DNA of 64,000 nt, from contig MGPC01000013.1 of the NCBI GenBank assembly GCA_001797315.1, forward strand, positions 1-64,000, given 5' to 3'. Numbering within the stretch: the stretch's first letter is position 1; each line of letters starts with the position of its first letter. Shown here one piece after another: positions 1,297-36,269 of the stretch. Made by a program: the position numbers and the translations under genes. This stretch comes from Curvibacter sp. GWA2_64_110. Lineage in GTDB: Bacteria > Pseudomonadota > Gammaproteobacteria > Burkholderiales > Burkholderiaceae_C. The notes beneath the pieces are model-generated. The model had not been told where the DNA came from. It made no database searches and saw only the letters and a program-made list of their open reading frames with translations.

Positions 1297-2844
1297 ATGC
1301 CTCCTGCTATTGATACCGACGCTGCCTCCGGCCGCCTGACGCGCTGGCTGCTTTTCACCGCCATCGCCTCGCTGGCCCTGCGTTTCTGGATCGCCTACGC
1401 CTTGCCCATCACCGGCGACGAGGCCTTCTTCTACTGGTGGGGCGTCTACCCCGACTGGGGTTATTACGACCACCCGCCCATGGTGGGCTGGCTGATCTGG
1501 CTCATGCGCACCCTGTTCGGCGAGGCCAGCTGGGCCATCCGCCTGCCGGTGGTGTTGCTGCCGCTGGCCACGGGCGCCACACTCTGGTGGGCCCTCAAGC
1601 CGCTGAGCCGCGAACGGGCCGCCTGGGCGGTGCTGCTGTTCTGGCTGGCACCGGTCAACTGGCTCAACAGCCTCATCACCACCGACACGCCGCTGATCTT
1701 CTGGTCGCTGCTGTCGGCCGGTGCGCTCTTGCGCGCCGAACGGCGCGAAACGCTGGACGGCCGCGCCTGGCGCCTGTACGCCCTCTCCGGCATCTTCATC
1801 GGCTGCGCCTTTTTGTCCAAGTATTTCTCGGTGGTGCTGGGCCTGGCCTATCTGCTGTACTTCGCGCTGTACCGGCGTGAACGCTGGTTGGGGCTGGCCC
1901 TGATCGTGCTGTGCGCCCTGCCCGGGCCACTGATCAACCTGTGGTGGAACATGGGCCACGGCTGGGCCAACATCATGTTCAACGCCATCAACCGCAACCA
2001 GGACGCCTCCTTTGCCTGGAGCCACCCGCTGAGCTACCTGGGCATGTTGGCCTATCTGCTGACGCCGGCCGTGCTGTGGCTGGGCTTCAAGCACCGTGCG
2101 GCGCTGGGCGACACCGTGCGCCAGCAGCGCCTGGTGGCCATGCTGATCGTGGTGCCGCTGCTGTTTTTTGCCGTGCTGTCGCTGAAGAAAACCGTGGGCC
2201 TGCACTGGGTGCTGGCCTTCTACCCCTTTGTCTTCGTGCTGCTGGCCTTTGCGCTGCCGCAGGCGGCCCTCAAAACTTGCGCGAAAGGCATGGCCTGGTT
2301 CACCGCCCTGCACGTGCTGGCGGTGGTCGCCATCGGCTTCACCCATGTGGAGCAATGGCAGGGCAAGCCGCGCTACTACAGCATGGTGCGCAGCTTCAAG
2401 ACGGCTGAACTGCTGGCCCAGGTGCGCACGCCCGACTCGGTGCTGATGGCCGACGCCTATGCCCCCGCCGCTGCCTACGGCTATACCCTCGGCCAGTACG
2501 TGCCGGTGTTCGGCCCGGGCAAGTTCCACGCCCGGCAGGACGACCTGCTGGTGGACTACTCCGTCTATGACGGCAAGACCATCCGCATCATCGTCTCGGA
2601 CGGCGAACCGCCGCCGCTGGATGGCTACCGGCCGTATTTCGACAGCGTGCAGCCGCTGAGCTTTGTGCAGAACGGCGTCACCTTCCATGCCGTGGAGGGC
2701 CGCAACTTCCACTTCGAGGCCTACCGCCAGGGCGTGCTGGGCGAGATCTTCCAGCGCTACTACGCCATTCCGAAGTGGCTGCCCATGACCGGCTGCCCGT
2801 TCTGCGTGCGTTACTGCGGGCAGGTGCAATGTCCGAGGCCGTGA
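1297..2844 (+). CDS. glycosyltransferase family 39 (ArnT/PMT-like) membrane protein
   Basis: A 515-residue protein with a typical GT39/PMT_2 layout: an N-terminal membrane helix, a first periplasmic loop with the acidic catalytic pair TGDEAFFYWW and WGYYDHPPMVGWLIW, then about ten more membrane helices and a soluble C-terminal tail. Known members use polyprenyl-phosphate-linked sugars as donors and act on the periplasmic face (ArnT transfers L-Ara4N to lipid A; PMTs mannosylate proteins). It starts 6 bp after the flippase-like gene and overlaps the next gene by 16 bp, so it is in the same operon. The C-terminus holds a cluster of Cys residues (GCPFCVRYCGQVQCP), unusual for the family. The acceptor is unknown. 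Confidence 0.8.
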   Translation: MPPAIDTDAASGRLTRWLLFTAIASLALRFWIAYALPITGDEAFFYWWGVYPDWGYYDHPPMVGWLIWLMRTLFGEASWAIRLPVVLLPLATGATLWWALKPLSRERAAWAVLLFWLAPVNWLNSLITTDTPLIFWSLLSAGALLRAERRETLDGRAWRLYALSGIFIGCAFLSKYFSVVLGLAYLLYFALYRRERWLGLALIVLCALPGPLINLWWNMGHGWANIMFNAINRNQDASFAWSHPLSYLGMLAYLLTPAVLWLGFKHRAALGDTVRQQRLVAMLIVVPLLFFAVLSLKKTVGLHWVLAFYPFVFVLLAFALPQAALKTCAKGMAWFTALHVLAVVAIGFTHVEQWQGKPRYYSMVRSFKTAELLAQVRTPDSVLMADAYAPAAAYGYTLGQYVPVFGPGKFHARQDDLLVDYSVYDGKTIRIIVSDGEPPPLDGYRPYFDSVQPLSFVQNGVTFHAVEGRNFHFEAYRQGVLGEIFQRYYAIPKWLPMTGCPFCVRYCGQVQCPRP

Positions 2845-3497
2845 ACCCCATAGCCGATAAAGGTAAGGCCACCCAGTCAGTGGTGGCCGCCTTCGACTTC
2901 GACGGCACCCTCACCCGGCGCGACACCCTGCTGCCTTTCCTGCGCCGCCTGCTGGGCGGGCCCACGCTGCTGTGGGTGCTGTTCATCTGCAGCCCCTGGC
3001 TGGCGGCTTATGTGCTGCGCCTCATCAGCAACCACCGCGCCAAGGCCGTGCTGCTACAAGCCGCCCTGGCCGGCCGGCGCGTGGCCGAGGTGGAGCGCTA
3101 CGCCCAGGCCTTTGTGCGCGAATACCTGCCGCAGCAATGGCGCCCCTGGGGCCTGCAGCAGCTGGTGCAGCACCAGCAAGCCGGCCACCGCTGCGTGCTC
3201 GTCACCGCATCCACCAGCCCTTACATGCACCTGGTCGGCGCCAGCCTGGGCGTGGACGCGGTGCTGTGCACCGAGATGGAAGTGGTGGACGGCCGCTACA
3301 CCGGCCGCATGGCCACGGCCAACTGCCATGGGGAAGAGAAGGTGGAGCGGCTCAAGGCCTGGCTGACGCAGATCTACGGCCCGGCCCCGGATCATCAACC
3401 GACGCTGCACGCCTATGGTGATACCAAGGGGGATTGGCCGATGCTACGTATGGCGCAGCAGGCCTGGTACCGCGAAAAACCGTGGAAGGCCAACTAA
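2829..3497 (+). CDS. HAD-IB family phosphatase (SerB-like)
   Basis: A 222-residue hydrolase. Motif I is FDFDGTLTRRDT (nucleophile and acid/base Asp, about residues 18-29). The motif II region is VLVTASTSPYMHLVG, and motif IV is GDTKGDWPML near the C-terminus. The cap segment contains a hydrophobic stretch (LLWVLFICSPWLAAYVL) seen in membrane-associated HAD-IB enzymes. I chose the ATG at 2829, inside the end of the GT39 gene, because it leaves a normal N-terminus; an in-frame start at 2775 would add 18 residues read from inside the GT39 C-terminus. A possible substrate in this operon is polyprenylphosphoryl-5-phosphoribose or a related lipid phosphate. That is inference only. Confidence 0.85.
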   Translation: MSEAVNPIADKGKATQSVVAAFDFDGTLTRRDTLLPFLRRLLGGPTLLWVLFICSPWLAAYVLRLISNHRAKAVLLQAALAGRRVAEVERYAQAFVREYLPQQWRPWGLQQLVQHQQAGHRCVLVTASTSPYMHLVGASLGVDAVLCTEMEVVDGRYTGRMATANCHGEEKVERLKAWLTQIYGPAPDHQPTLHAYGDTKGDWPMLRMAQQAWYREKPWKAN

Positions 3498-3511
3498 GCC
3501 TGTCGCAGGCT
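3497..3511 (+). terminator. short hairpin at the end of the HAD gene
   Basis: AGCCTG-tcg-CAGGCT forms a perfect 6-bp stem beginning in the stop codon of the HAD gene. No T-run follows, so it is at best a weak terminator. Its distal arm overlaps the last core box of the attC site described next, so it may also mark the cassette boundary. Confidence 0.35.
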
Positions 3512-3565
3512 GACGTTTGAATTTAGCGGATCGCCAACGGCGGCCGCTGAACCAATGAGTTCGGC
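3508..3565 (-). mobile_element. attC site (59-base element) of an integron gene cassette
   Basis: Read on the minus strand, this 58-bp segment has the full attC order. R'' is GCCGAAC, followed by a short spacer, then L'' TTCAGCGG, a variable stem-loop (CGCC-gtt-GGCG), L' CCGCTAA, the typical ATTCAAAC spacer, and R' GTCAGCC. L' is the reverse complement of L'' except for one extra base in L''; this is the extrahelical base used for strand choice in known attC sites. The layout matches the attC of classical aadA cassettes almost position by position. R' has changed from the expected GTT-start (GTTRRRY) to GTC, so the site may no longer recombine. It begins 1 nt after the stop codon of the small membrane-protein gene, as usual in cassettes. 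Confidence 0.7.
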
Positions 3566-3566
3566 A

Positions 3567-3977
3567 TCATAGGGATTCCTCCCGTTGCGCGGAGGAACGC
3601 CTTACACGTTTCCGCTGTAATGAGGTGAAGTGGATAACGGCTGCCGCAGCCAAGAACGCGACAACGCTCATTGGCGGAAGTATTACGATCAGAAAAACAG
3701 TTAATGCCAGAGCGCAAGCCGCCGCAACGTAGTAGCCGATACCGAATCGATAGCGCCGCCCGGTACACGTCGCGATAGCGAGCCACCAGTAGTGCGACAA
3801 AGCAAAGAGACTGGCAACAAAGAGAGCTCCGTTCAGCCCGGCAAATCCAGGCAAAATCTGAAACTCCTTCACAGTGACTATGGCTGCCAATGGAAGATAA
3901 ACCACGGCCAAGAAGGTTGCAGGCAAGCCGAAAATGAAGGCCTCAAGCAGAAGAACGCCGGAAAGCGTGTACTTCAT
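3567..3977 (-). CDS. gene-cassette membrane protein of unknown function
   Basis: A predicted 136-residue protein with about four membrane helices (GVLLLEAFIFGLPATFLAVV; GLNGALFVASLFALSHYWW; YYVAAACALALTVFLIVILP; SVVAFLAAAAVIHFTSL) and a basic C-terminal tail (LQRKRVRRSSAQREE). I do not recognise the family. I chose the ATG at 3977 because it lies 3 nt after a GTTAGAC core box, the normal place for a cassette start; an ATG at 3992 would add five residues. Ribosome-binding signals are poor for both starts. Base composition is visibly more AT-rich than the neighbours, consistent with acquisition as a cassette. The stop codon abuts the attC site. Confidence 0.6.
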   Translation of the reverse strand: MKYTLSGVLLLEAFIFGLPATFLAVVYLPLAAIVTVKEFQILPGFAGLNGALFVASLFALSHYWWLAIATCTGRRYRFGIGYYVAAACALALTVFLIVILPPMSVVAFLAAAAVIHFTSLQRKRVRRSSAQREESL

Positions 3978-4268
3978 GTTGTCTAACGCCATAGGCAAGA
4001 CCTAACTTGTTTTAGAGCGCAAAGGTGCGAATAGCATGCCTGAATGTCCATGGCATATGCCTCCCTGTTGCGAATAAGACCTTGTTTTATCAAGGCATTC
4101 TGTCAGATTACGGGCCCGATCCGAGCTATTAACAATAGCGTAAAGACCCGGCAAAGGCGTCGCCCCCATCTTCGACATTGCCCTGAAAACGCGCCTGAAT
4201 GCGCTTGTTTTGCAAACCTTGTTAGATCCTCAAGGCATAATAAACACCAGTTTTAGCTGGAATTCACC
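3978..4268. mobile_element. attI-like cassette junction (3981-4015), then cysB upstream region
   Basis: On the minus strand, 4015 to 4000 reads CTAAAACAAGTTAGGT, close to the class 1 integron attI end as I remember it (CTAAAACAAAGTTAGGC). A second core box, GTTAGAC, follows at 3987-3981, just before the cassette start codon. The order attI-like, gene, attC is consistent in orientation. No integrase gene or fragment is seen upstream; 4020-4268 is an AT-rich non-coding stretch that must hold the promoter of the CysB-type gene (a possible -35 TTGCAA at 4210 and a CATAAT at 4236, with poor spacing). The 19-nt gap between the two core boxes may be the scar of a lost cassette. Confidence 0.45.
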
Positions 4269-5222
4269 ATGAACCTGCACCAGTTCCGCTTTGTTCAGGA
4301 GGCGGCGCGCCACAACCTGAACCTGACCGAGGCGGCCAAGGCGCTGCACACCTCGCAGCCGGGCGTGTCCAAGGCCATCATCGAGCTGGAAGAAGAACTC
4401 GGCATCGACATCTTTGCCCGCCACGGCAAGCGCCTCAAGCGCATCACCGAGCCGGGGCAGCACGTGCTCAAGAGCATCGAACTCATCATGCGCGAGATCG
4501 GCAACCTCAAGCGCATCGGCGAGCAGTACAGCGCGCAAGACAGCGGCACGCTCTCCATTGCCACTACCCACACCCAGGCGCGTTACGTGCTGCCCGAGCC
4601 GGTGGCCAAGCTGCGCGCAGCCTACCCCAAGGTCAACCTCAGCCTGCACCAGGGCACGCCCGACCAGGTGGCGCGCATGCTGATTGACGAGGTGGCCGAG
4701 ATCGGCATTGCGACCGAATCGCTGTCCAACTACGACGAGCTTGTCACCCTGCCCTGCTACGAGTGGCAGCACATGCTGGTGCTGCCGGCCAGCCACCCGC
4801 TGGCGACCAAGGAACGCCTGACGCTGGAAGACATCGCGGCCGAGCCGCTGGTGACCTACCACCCCACCTTCACCGGCCGCACCCGCATCGACCATGCCTT
4901 CGCCCAGCGCAAGCTGGAACCGCGCATCGCGCTGGAAGCCATCGATTCGGACGTGATCACCACTTACGTCAAGCTTGGCATGGGCATCGGCATCGTGGCC
5001 GAGATGGCGGTGCGCGGCATGCCGGCGCAGGCGGCGGACGGCGAACTGGTGATCCGCCCGCTGGGCCACCTGTTCGGCCAGAACGTGACGCGCGTGGCCT
5101 TCAAGCGCGGCGCCTACCTGCGCAATTTCGTCTTCGAGTTCGCCGAGTTGCTGAGCGAGCGCCTCAAGCGCGACCTGGTGGCGCGCGCCATGACCGGCCA
5201 CGTCAATGATTATGAGCTGTAA
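4269..5222 (+). CDS. cysB: LysR-type regulator of the CysB/Cbl subfamily
   Basis: A 317-residue protein, the usual LysR length. The winged helix-turn-helix occupies residues 1-60 (NLTEAAKALHTSQPGVSKAI as the helix-turn-helix core). The effector domain follows from about residue 92 with CysB-type landmarks: TTHTQARYVLP, LHQGTPDQVARML and YHPTFTGRTRID. CysB proteins bind O- or N-acetylserine and activate sulfate assimilation genes. The assimilation operon lies 24 kb away at 28.4-34.5 kb, so control would be in trans. The ATG at 4269 follows an AT-rich upstream region. Subfamily is clear; whether it behaves as CysB or as a Cbl-like paralogue cannot be told from sequence. Confidence 0.85.
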   Translation: MNLHQFRFVQEAARHNLNLTEAAKALHTSQPGVSKAIIELEEELGIDIFARHGKRLKRITEPGQHVLKSIELIMREIGNLKRIGEQYSAQDSGTLSIATTHTQARYVLPEPVAKLRAAYPKVNLSLHQGTPDQVARMLIDEVAEIGIATESLSNYDELVTLPCYEWQHMLVLPASHPLATKERLTLEDIAAEPLVTYHPTFTGRTRIDHAFAQRKLEPRIALEAIDSDVITTYVKLGMGIGIVAEMAVRGMPAQAADGELVIRPLGHLFGQNVTRVAFKRGAYLRNFVFEFAELLSERLKRDLVARAMTGHVNDYEL

Positions 5223-36082: not shown

Positions 36083-36119
36083 TTGGCTCTAAAATTCGTC
36101 TGTGCTCACGAAAGCACAT

Positions 36120-36212
36120 TCGCTAGGGGTGTTGCGGTCTGGCTATTCAGACCGCGACTGAGACAGTCCCTTTGAACCTGATTGAGGTAATGCTCACGCA
36201 GGGAAGCAGGCC
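36120..36212 (+). ncRNA. TPP riboswitch (THI element)
   Basis: Hallmarks in order on the plus strand: TAGGGGTGTTG, a long P3 stem (GCGGTCTG-gctatt-CAGACCGC), CTGAGA, CCTTTGAACCTGAT, GAGGTAATGC and CACGCAGGGAAGC. These are the conserved core elements of the thiamin-pyrophosphate aptamer. The next gene on this strand is thiO, 1.1 kb away; the gene directly downstream, thiD, is on the opposite strand. The switch is thus detached from any start codon in its immediate neighbourhood. Confidence 0.93.
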
Positions 36213-36216
36213 CGAC

Positions 36217-36269
36217 AGGCAGGTCAGCCACTGCGATTGACCCGCCGCCCGCCAGCCCCCCTGCCTTTG
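36217..36269 (+). terminator. possible expression-platform stem after the TPP aptamer
   Basis: AGGCAGG (36217-36223) can pair with CCTGCCT (36260-36266), followed by TTGA. The stem encloses a C-rich loop of 36 nt. It may be what is left of a ligand-controlled terminator or sequestering stem. Weak evidence. Confidence 0.3.

Follow-up and report, generated by a model that had tools for sequence, protein, structure and literature searches.

The window analysed here is the stretch of 64,000 nt at positions 1 to 64,000 of contig MGPC01000013.1 of Curvibacter sp. GWA2_64_110. Between two native genes, one for a HAD-family hydrolase and one for a CysB-like LysR regulator, it carries on the opposite strand an attI module, the core of the attI site, a second core-like box, a gene and an attC site, in this order when read from 4136 to 3508 (Table 1). 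The left edge of the module lies at about position 4166, and the attC site begins 1 nt past the stop codon of the gene. The preliminary description, which had been made from the letters alone, had seen here a captured gene cassette with an attI-like site, an attC and no integrase, and all of these elements were upheld by our sequence analysis. It had also likened positions 4015 to 4000 to the end of a class 1-type attI. The assignment as an attI end stands, but "class 1-like" says too little, as these positions form the 3′ end of an attI module that is specific to the genus.

Table 1. Features of the cassette locus and of its flanks (positions in the window)
Feature	Position	Strand	Basis
HAD-family hydrolase gene, native left flank	2775–3497	+	PF12710
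attC site, decayed; R″ GCCGAAC (3559–3565), R′ GTCAGCC (3508–3514)	3508–3565	−	attC score
Cassette gene, hydrophobic protein of 136 aa	3567–3977	−	relative in the integron of G213
Second core-like box GTTAGAC, 3 nt 5′ of the cassette ATG	3981–3987	−	sequence
Leader ORF, MDIQACYSHLCALKQVRSCLWR followed by the stop	3983–4051	−	translation
attI core GTTAGGT, crossover G(4006)^TT	4000–4006	−	sequence and aligned core of the module family
attI module, presumed docking platform (promoter-like region, Shine-Dalgarno, leader ORF, repeat, crossover core)	4002–4136	−	model R1, 85.4 bits (window copy among the 14 training rows)
Putative Pc-like promoter, TTGTTA (4130–4135) N17 CGTAAT (4107–4112)	4107–4135	−	by eye
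CysB-like LysR regulator gene, native right flank	4269–5222	+	PF03466/PF00126

For the detection of attC sites, we used a profile-plus-stem scorer, the training set of which comprised 18 attC sites from elsewhere and did not include the window site. A symmetric scanner was dropped in its favour because that scanner is blind to the strand, attC being quasi-palindromic. Applied to 9.5 kb of an integron from another genus of the family (genome G213), the scorer found 14 attC sites, all of them on the strand of the cassettes. In the window, the top score of both strands was 27.9 and fell on exactly the 58 nt that had been proposed, with the anatomy that had been claimed for them. The runner-up scored 20.3, and the best value in three mononucleotide-shuffled 64-kb strands was 25.5. 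The window attC is weak when compared with the training seeds, the scores of which range from 23.7 to 51.1. Its predicted lowest-energy fold differs from the canonical hairpin (z −1.46 and −1.64 for the two strands); by eye, the canonical hairpin was recognised in six of seven folded relatives, the exception being L061 (z +0.87). The consensus fold of an attC alignment contained zero pairs. At gathering thresholds, Rfam gave no match at the cassette/attC locus. A TPP riboswitch at positions 36115 to 36221 of the plus strand of the window is unrelated to this locus.

The R′ box of the window attC has GTC in place of GTT, and this change had been put forward as the reason why the cassette is frozen. 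We regard this explanation as doubtful. The TTRRRY half of the R′ box that closes an array comes from the target site and not from the cassette, and Curvibacter delicatus (G002) likewise ends in ACGTC beside the HAD gene, after a different cassette. This end is presumably the same locus as that of the window, divided between two contigs. Altered last R′ boxes were seen by eye at several platforms, i.e. GTC at 3508–3514 of the window, GTC at about 837–842 of L068, GCT at the end of the first cassette of L170, and ATT at about 8200 of L062. Such alterations are expected from the loss of the integrase, or they could be inherited with the target half-site.

The cassette protein matched no Pfam family, and no relative was found among the plasmids searched. 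Matches were obtained in two of 299 genomes of the family, namely in the window genome itself and in G213. The G213 relative (49% identity over 130 aa, E = 1.4e-33) sits 3.4 kb from an integron integrase that scores over the cut-off, between two of the 14 attC sites, and the attC that follows it starts with GCCGAAC, the same as that of the window. This relative is itself a cassette of a genuine integron. Four membrane helices had been predicted for the window protein; the hydropathy plot, which was the only check, is compatible with four, but the hydrophobic stretches overlap.

The 135-nt module of the window is homologous to the attI that lies beside the intact integrase gene (intI) of Curvibacter sp. 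PAE-UM (G016). A first DNA search for the block of the module gave matches in 15 of 399 genomes of the family, further copies in the window genome included. Three matches, one in each of three genomes (L085 to L087), were rejected as due to chance, since they had only a Shine-Dalgarno-like stretch in common with the module, leaving 12 of 399 genomes. An alignment of 14 modules (A1), including the window copy and the cis-attI of G016, was the basis of a sequence-only model (R1). This model has 110 matches in 19 of the 26 genomes of the genus and none in the other seven, with, e.g., 17 matches in G016 (3.63-Mb contig), 11 in G019 (single contig), and 10 each in G021 and G009. Six matches are located on five contigs of the window genome, i.e. 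C31:155291, C11:60649, C13 (the window), C31:40574, C6:101049 and C19:29858, so that the earlier term "lone" for the cassette is wrong at the level of the genome. The C19 match reaches only 21.2 bits, and its upstream flank is 86% identical to that of L160 in G016 over 818 nt. With stricter filters, the module was found family-wide in 10 of 399 genomes and in 4 of 141 genera.

Of the 110 matches, 103 were mapped to DNA (7 remained unmapped), and 97 of these cover the model through to its end (6 are short); up to 15 complete modules are present in one genome. The GTT core is present in 76 of these 97 modules and absent from 21. For 75 modules with a GTT core, the mean pairwise column identity is 0.70–0.73 over the 20 nt that lead up to the core, compared with 0.25–0.28 from 10 nt past the core, and the similarity between copies is at background within about 6–10 nt past it. 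The left edge is also similar across the copies, by eye about TTGCGGGGTTTCACGGTTTG.

We searched the DNA downstream of the 97 modules for attC sites (score of at least 26) within 2.5 kb, i.e. 213.7 kb in total. There were 81 matches on the strand of the module, 15 of which are training seeds of the scorer and 66 are not, and one match on the opposite strand. The corresponding values for 145.3 kb of upstream DNA are one and zero. For 90 modules, the available downstream sequence is 700 nt or longer; 49 of these are followed by an attC (45 by a non-seed attC) and 41 are not. Many of these 41 sites, as well as of the 21 modules without a GTT core, are decayed or are weak matches.

The internal organisation was compared for 65 modules, for which the consensuses GTTRRRY and RYYYAAC and the −35/−10 and LexA box motifs were taken as established. 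In 42 of them, the TRR codon of the core is the stop of a leader ORF with a Shine-Dalgarno, and in the other 23 the leader stops elsewhere, continues, or was not found. By a lenient test, an ORF with 40 codons or more begins within 60 nt in 62 of the 65 modules. The leader ORF of the window is frame-shifted, so that it crosses the first core and has its stop in the second one, at the TAG; the latter box is a possible scar of an earlier cassette. The motif TTGT[TC]A-N17-TATA[TG]T was found as an exact match in 19 of the 65 modules by a scripted search, and the hexamers are predicted to function as promoters. In the window, the candidate −10 hexamer is weak, and the scripted search did not choose the TTGTTA/CGTAAT pair. 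Behind the first cassette of L158 (G016) lies a gene for an IS110-family transposase (PF01548), and similar proteins are encoded behind the first cassettes of L161 (G016) and L075 (G256); we take these genes to belong, possibly, to the attC-targeting IS1111-attC group.

The window genome has no match to the integron integrase model TIGR02249 over the cut-off, and the contig of the window has no match whatever. Matches over the cut-off are restricted to two of the 26 genomes of the genus, G016 and G024, and 17 of the 19 module-bearing genomes have none, several of the genomes compared being drafts. The window genome contains matches of the Xer type and a broken intI fragment on C36, which shares 44% identity with the integrase of G016 over 91 aa. 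This fragment was dropped as a candidate for the cognate integrase because, at this level of identity, it probably represents another lineage. A DUF3800-VI RNA (Rfam, 38.5 bits) was matched at L037 (8427–8479, minus strand), near this broken intI fragment of the window genome.

LexA-type boxes (strict pattern, 400 nt upstream) are found near two of the 103 modules, at the cis locus of G016 and on C24 of G010, and a tblastn search with the G016 integrase detected intI sequence at the same two loci only. The G016 locus comprises a LexA-type box, an intact IntI, the attI and cassettes. At the G010 locus (C24:5844, L126), the LexA-type box and the attI are retained, but of intI just a C-terminal scrap is left; judged from its sequence, this locus appears to be partway through losing its integrase. 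Among the module loci at the level of the family, pieces of intI lie beside L081 (G263) only. In G256, which is a single contig, the module (C1:1391083) and the IntI (C1:3393928) are 2 Mb apart.

According to the preliminary description, close relatives might have the HAD and cysB genes directly adjacent, and this is the case in eight genomes of the genus. The distance from the end of the HAD alignment to the start of the cysB-like gene is 26–81 nt in these eight genomes, and none of these loci contains a relative of the cassette protein. When the site is filled, the distance is 774 nt in the window genome (G000), 792 nt in G004, and about 1.37 kb in G041. In G002, the contig with the cysB-like gene extends for just 331 nt upstream of this gene, and the HAD gene is found on a different contig. 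The remaining cysB-like loci compared have no HAD match alongside. The block on the cysB side is common to G000, G002, G004 and G041, with flanks that are 95–97% identical. The cargoes of G000, G004 and G041 are three different ones, with no DNA similarity over 500 nt; the first cassette of G002 was outside this comparison, its contig stopping 60 nt past the core.

For a comparison across the whole genus, orthologous sites were defined as pairs from different genomes with a direct match of the upstream flanks of at least 400 nt at no less than 75% identity. Pairs with at least 300 nt of downstream DNA on both sides were regarded as testable, and the first cassette was counted as shared when at least 150 nt of its DNA matched. 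The orthologous sites form 16 groups, the largest of which spans eight genomes. Among 73 pairs, 70 were testable, and the first cassette is shared in only one of these 70, in a comparison at the level of DNA that misses distant protein relatives of the cassettes. In this pair, L142 (G010) and L176 (G019), the cassettes are 99.8% identical over 500 nt and the flanks 90%. A looser count of 121 pairs in single-linkage groups, also with one case of sharing, was superseded by this recount because it included pairs short of downstream DNA, as well as a group to which one genome contributed two modules. The platforms thus keep their positions, and the captured genes vary between species.

Another genus (g115) shows the same pattern on a smaller scale. 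Ten related sites are present in 5 of its 41 genomes, and nine of them have an attC downstream. None of the ten loci contains intI within flanks of 1.5 kb, and a search of the five genomes at E ≤ 1e-25 gave no IntI match. One of the sites, L269, has two attC upstream as well, which we assign to the neighbouring array, that of L274, at a distance of 2.9 kb on the same contig.

Taken together, we consider it very probable that the window contains an outpost of a decentralised integron, which consists of many fixed attI platforms that are served in trans and the integrase of which has mostly been lost. An attI-platform module of about 140–165 nt would have been copied to many places in the chromosome without intI. 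Each copy would be a fixed landing site for circular cassettes, which would enter by attI x attC recombination, the integron integrase acting in trans from elsewhere. The cassette would be transcribed from the promoter of the module, and the leader peptide may aid its expression by termination-reinitiation. The site between the HAD and cysB-like genes would have taken up a cassette that encodes a small membrane protein, while the sister species hold other cargo. The integrase would later have been lost from most genomes of the genus, including that of the window, so that the window site has probably become static and is in decay. Because IntI is now missing from the 17 module-bearing genomes mentioned above, action in trans would be either historical or due to a visiting integrase.

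An alternative is that each site is the relic of an integron of its own, once complete, from which intI was lost by the decay known from CALINs and SALINs, and that no platforms were ever served in trans. Loss of intI is real, as the scrap at the G010 cis locus shows, and an attI of a similar kind in another genus, at L081 of G263, adjoins intI pieces. However, with a LexA-type box and intI sequence at only 2 of 103 modules of the genus, and with up to 15 complete modules per genome that would need as many independent integrons, all cut to a similar left edge, we regard this explanation as improbable. A small but appreciable probability has to be granted to homologous recombination between the flanks, which would import whole platforms and would generate the cassette differences without any integrase at the sites. 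The flanks are similar enough for this, most genomes are now devoid of intI, and the comparison is one between genomes rather than within species. Yet the differences start at the core and their far end is marked by an attC, the one shared cassette is 99.8% identical inside flanks of just 90%, and the first entry of the cassettes would be left unexplained.

Two further readings concern the module itself. A single cassette could have been put by IntI into an ordinary attG site, the resemblance to attI being accidental, and single cassettes outside of integrons are indeed known (SALIN and attG; excerpts of PMC9229058 and PMC12444791). Three observations make this reading highly implausible: the 135-nt target matches the module family with 85.4 bits, the window copy being among the 14 training rows; a plain DNA search recovers the same block in G002, in G041 and elsewhere in the window genome; and three sister genomes have the module at the same site. 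The module could also be an unrelated repeat, a MITE-like promoter or an RNA leader, that precedes mobile genes by chance. It is multicopy and intergenic, it has promoter-like and leader-like parts, and its spread is unexplained. Nevertheless, we give this idea hardly any credence, as the attI of a locus with an intact intI is among the copies, the conservation halts at G^TTRRRY, and the downstream enrichment of attC is confined to one strand.

The decentralised integron shares features with several known systems. As in a sedentary chromosomal integron, there is an attI with a GTTRRRY core, a promoter-like sequence and cassettes with attC. In contrast to such an integron, the platform is multiplied and scattered, intI lies beside only 2 of 103 modules, and the number of attC per site is low (81 over 97 modules within 2.5 kb). 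Insertion of a cassette into an ordinary genomic site (attG) was reportedly observed experimentally in E. coli by Loot et al. in 2024. Such an insertion also places a cassette outside the main integron, but an attG target is by definition neither attI nor attC, whereas the target in the window is a conserved attI homologue and not a generic genomic site.

With one attC match of at least 26 within 2.5 kb and without intI, the window site is a SALIN by definition. A CALIN has at least two attC and no integrase; the window site has one attC, and CALINs occur elsewhere in the window genome, e.g. on C6 with three attC matches. As described in excerpts of PMC9024848 and PMC9229058, and for Xanthomonas loci in an excerpt of PMC12444791, CALINs and SALINs share with our sites that cassettes lie far from intI and in recurrent places. 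They differ in that a recognisable attI-promoter-leader module precedes each of our sites, and no such attI copies are reported in these excerpts. The excerpt of PMC9024848 also states that IntegronFinder detects attI for class 1 only and that, by default, it reports CALINs from two attC sites up.

ORF-11 of the class 1 attI1 is, according to an excerpt of PMC8876359, an ORF with a Shine-Dalgarno that runs across attI, has its stop on positions 3–5 of the inserted core, and is translationally coupled to the first cassette. The short leader ORFs with a Shine-Dalgarno that end in the core of 42 of 65 modules resemble ORF-11 as presented there. They differ from it in sequence and length and by their dispersed copies; coupling would be a prediction for them, and the window ORF is frame-shifted to the second core. 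Cassettes of the Delta-attI type also have attI sequence away from its normal place, but in the excerpt of PMC12901181 fragments of attI form part of the cassettes themselves, whereas here whole attI modules are fixed upstream of the cassettes.

No description of dispersed attI platforms was found in the literature searched, the scope of which leaves out most subscription journals. Integrons are described with one attI each (PMC3607928, in excerpt), and only the first cassettes, beside the one promoter, are well expressed (PMC11023631, in excerpt). This picture of one attI per integron breaks down in a genus that has attI in many dispersed copies. The dispersed modules offer an origin for scattered cassettes without an integrase, and they reveal a blind spot of tools such as IntegronFinder. 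If our reading is true, captured genes could be expressed simultaneously at many places, each from the first position, without a queue in one array, and each platform would have its own promoter and leader peptide, inherited by position. Many CALINs and SALINs of other bacteria may then be unrecognised platforms of this type. The general form of the proposal, that one integrase, either own or transferred, serves a dozen or more attI platforms at which the cassettes turn over, and that many CALINs and SALINs elsewhere have the same background, could equally well hold or fail.

Two points have become testable by these results, i.e. the service of many genomic platforms by one integrase and the way in which attI is copied. 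Partial second copies of the module lie directly upstream of complete ones at L076, L075, L078, L155, L131 and L133. Together with the similar left edge of the modules, these partial tandem copies may be a clue to how the modules multiply.
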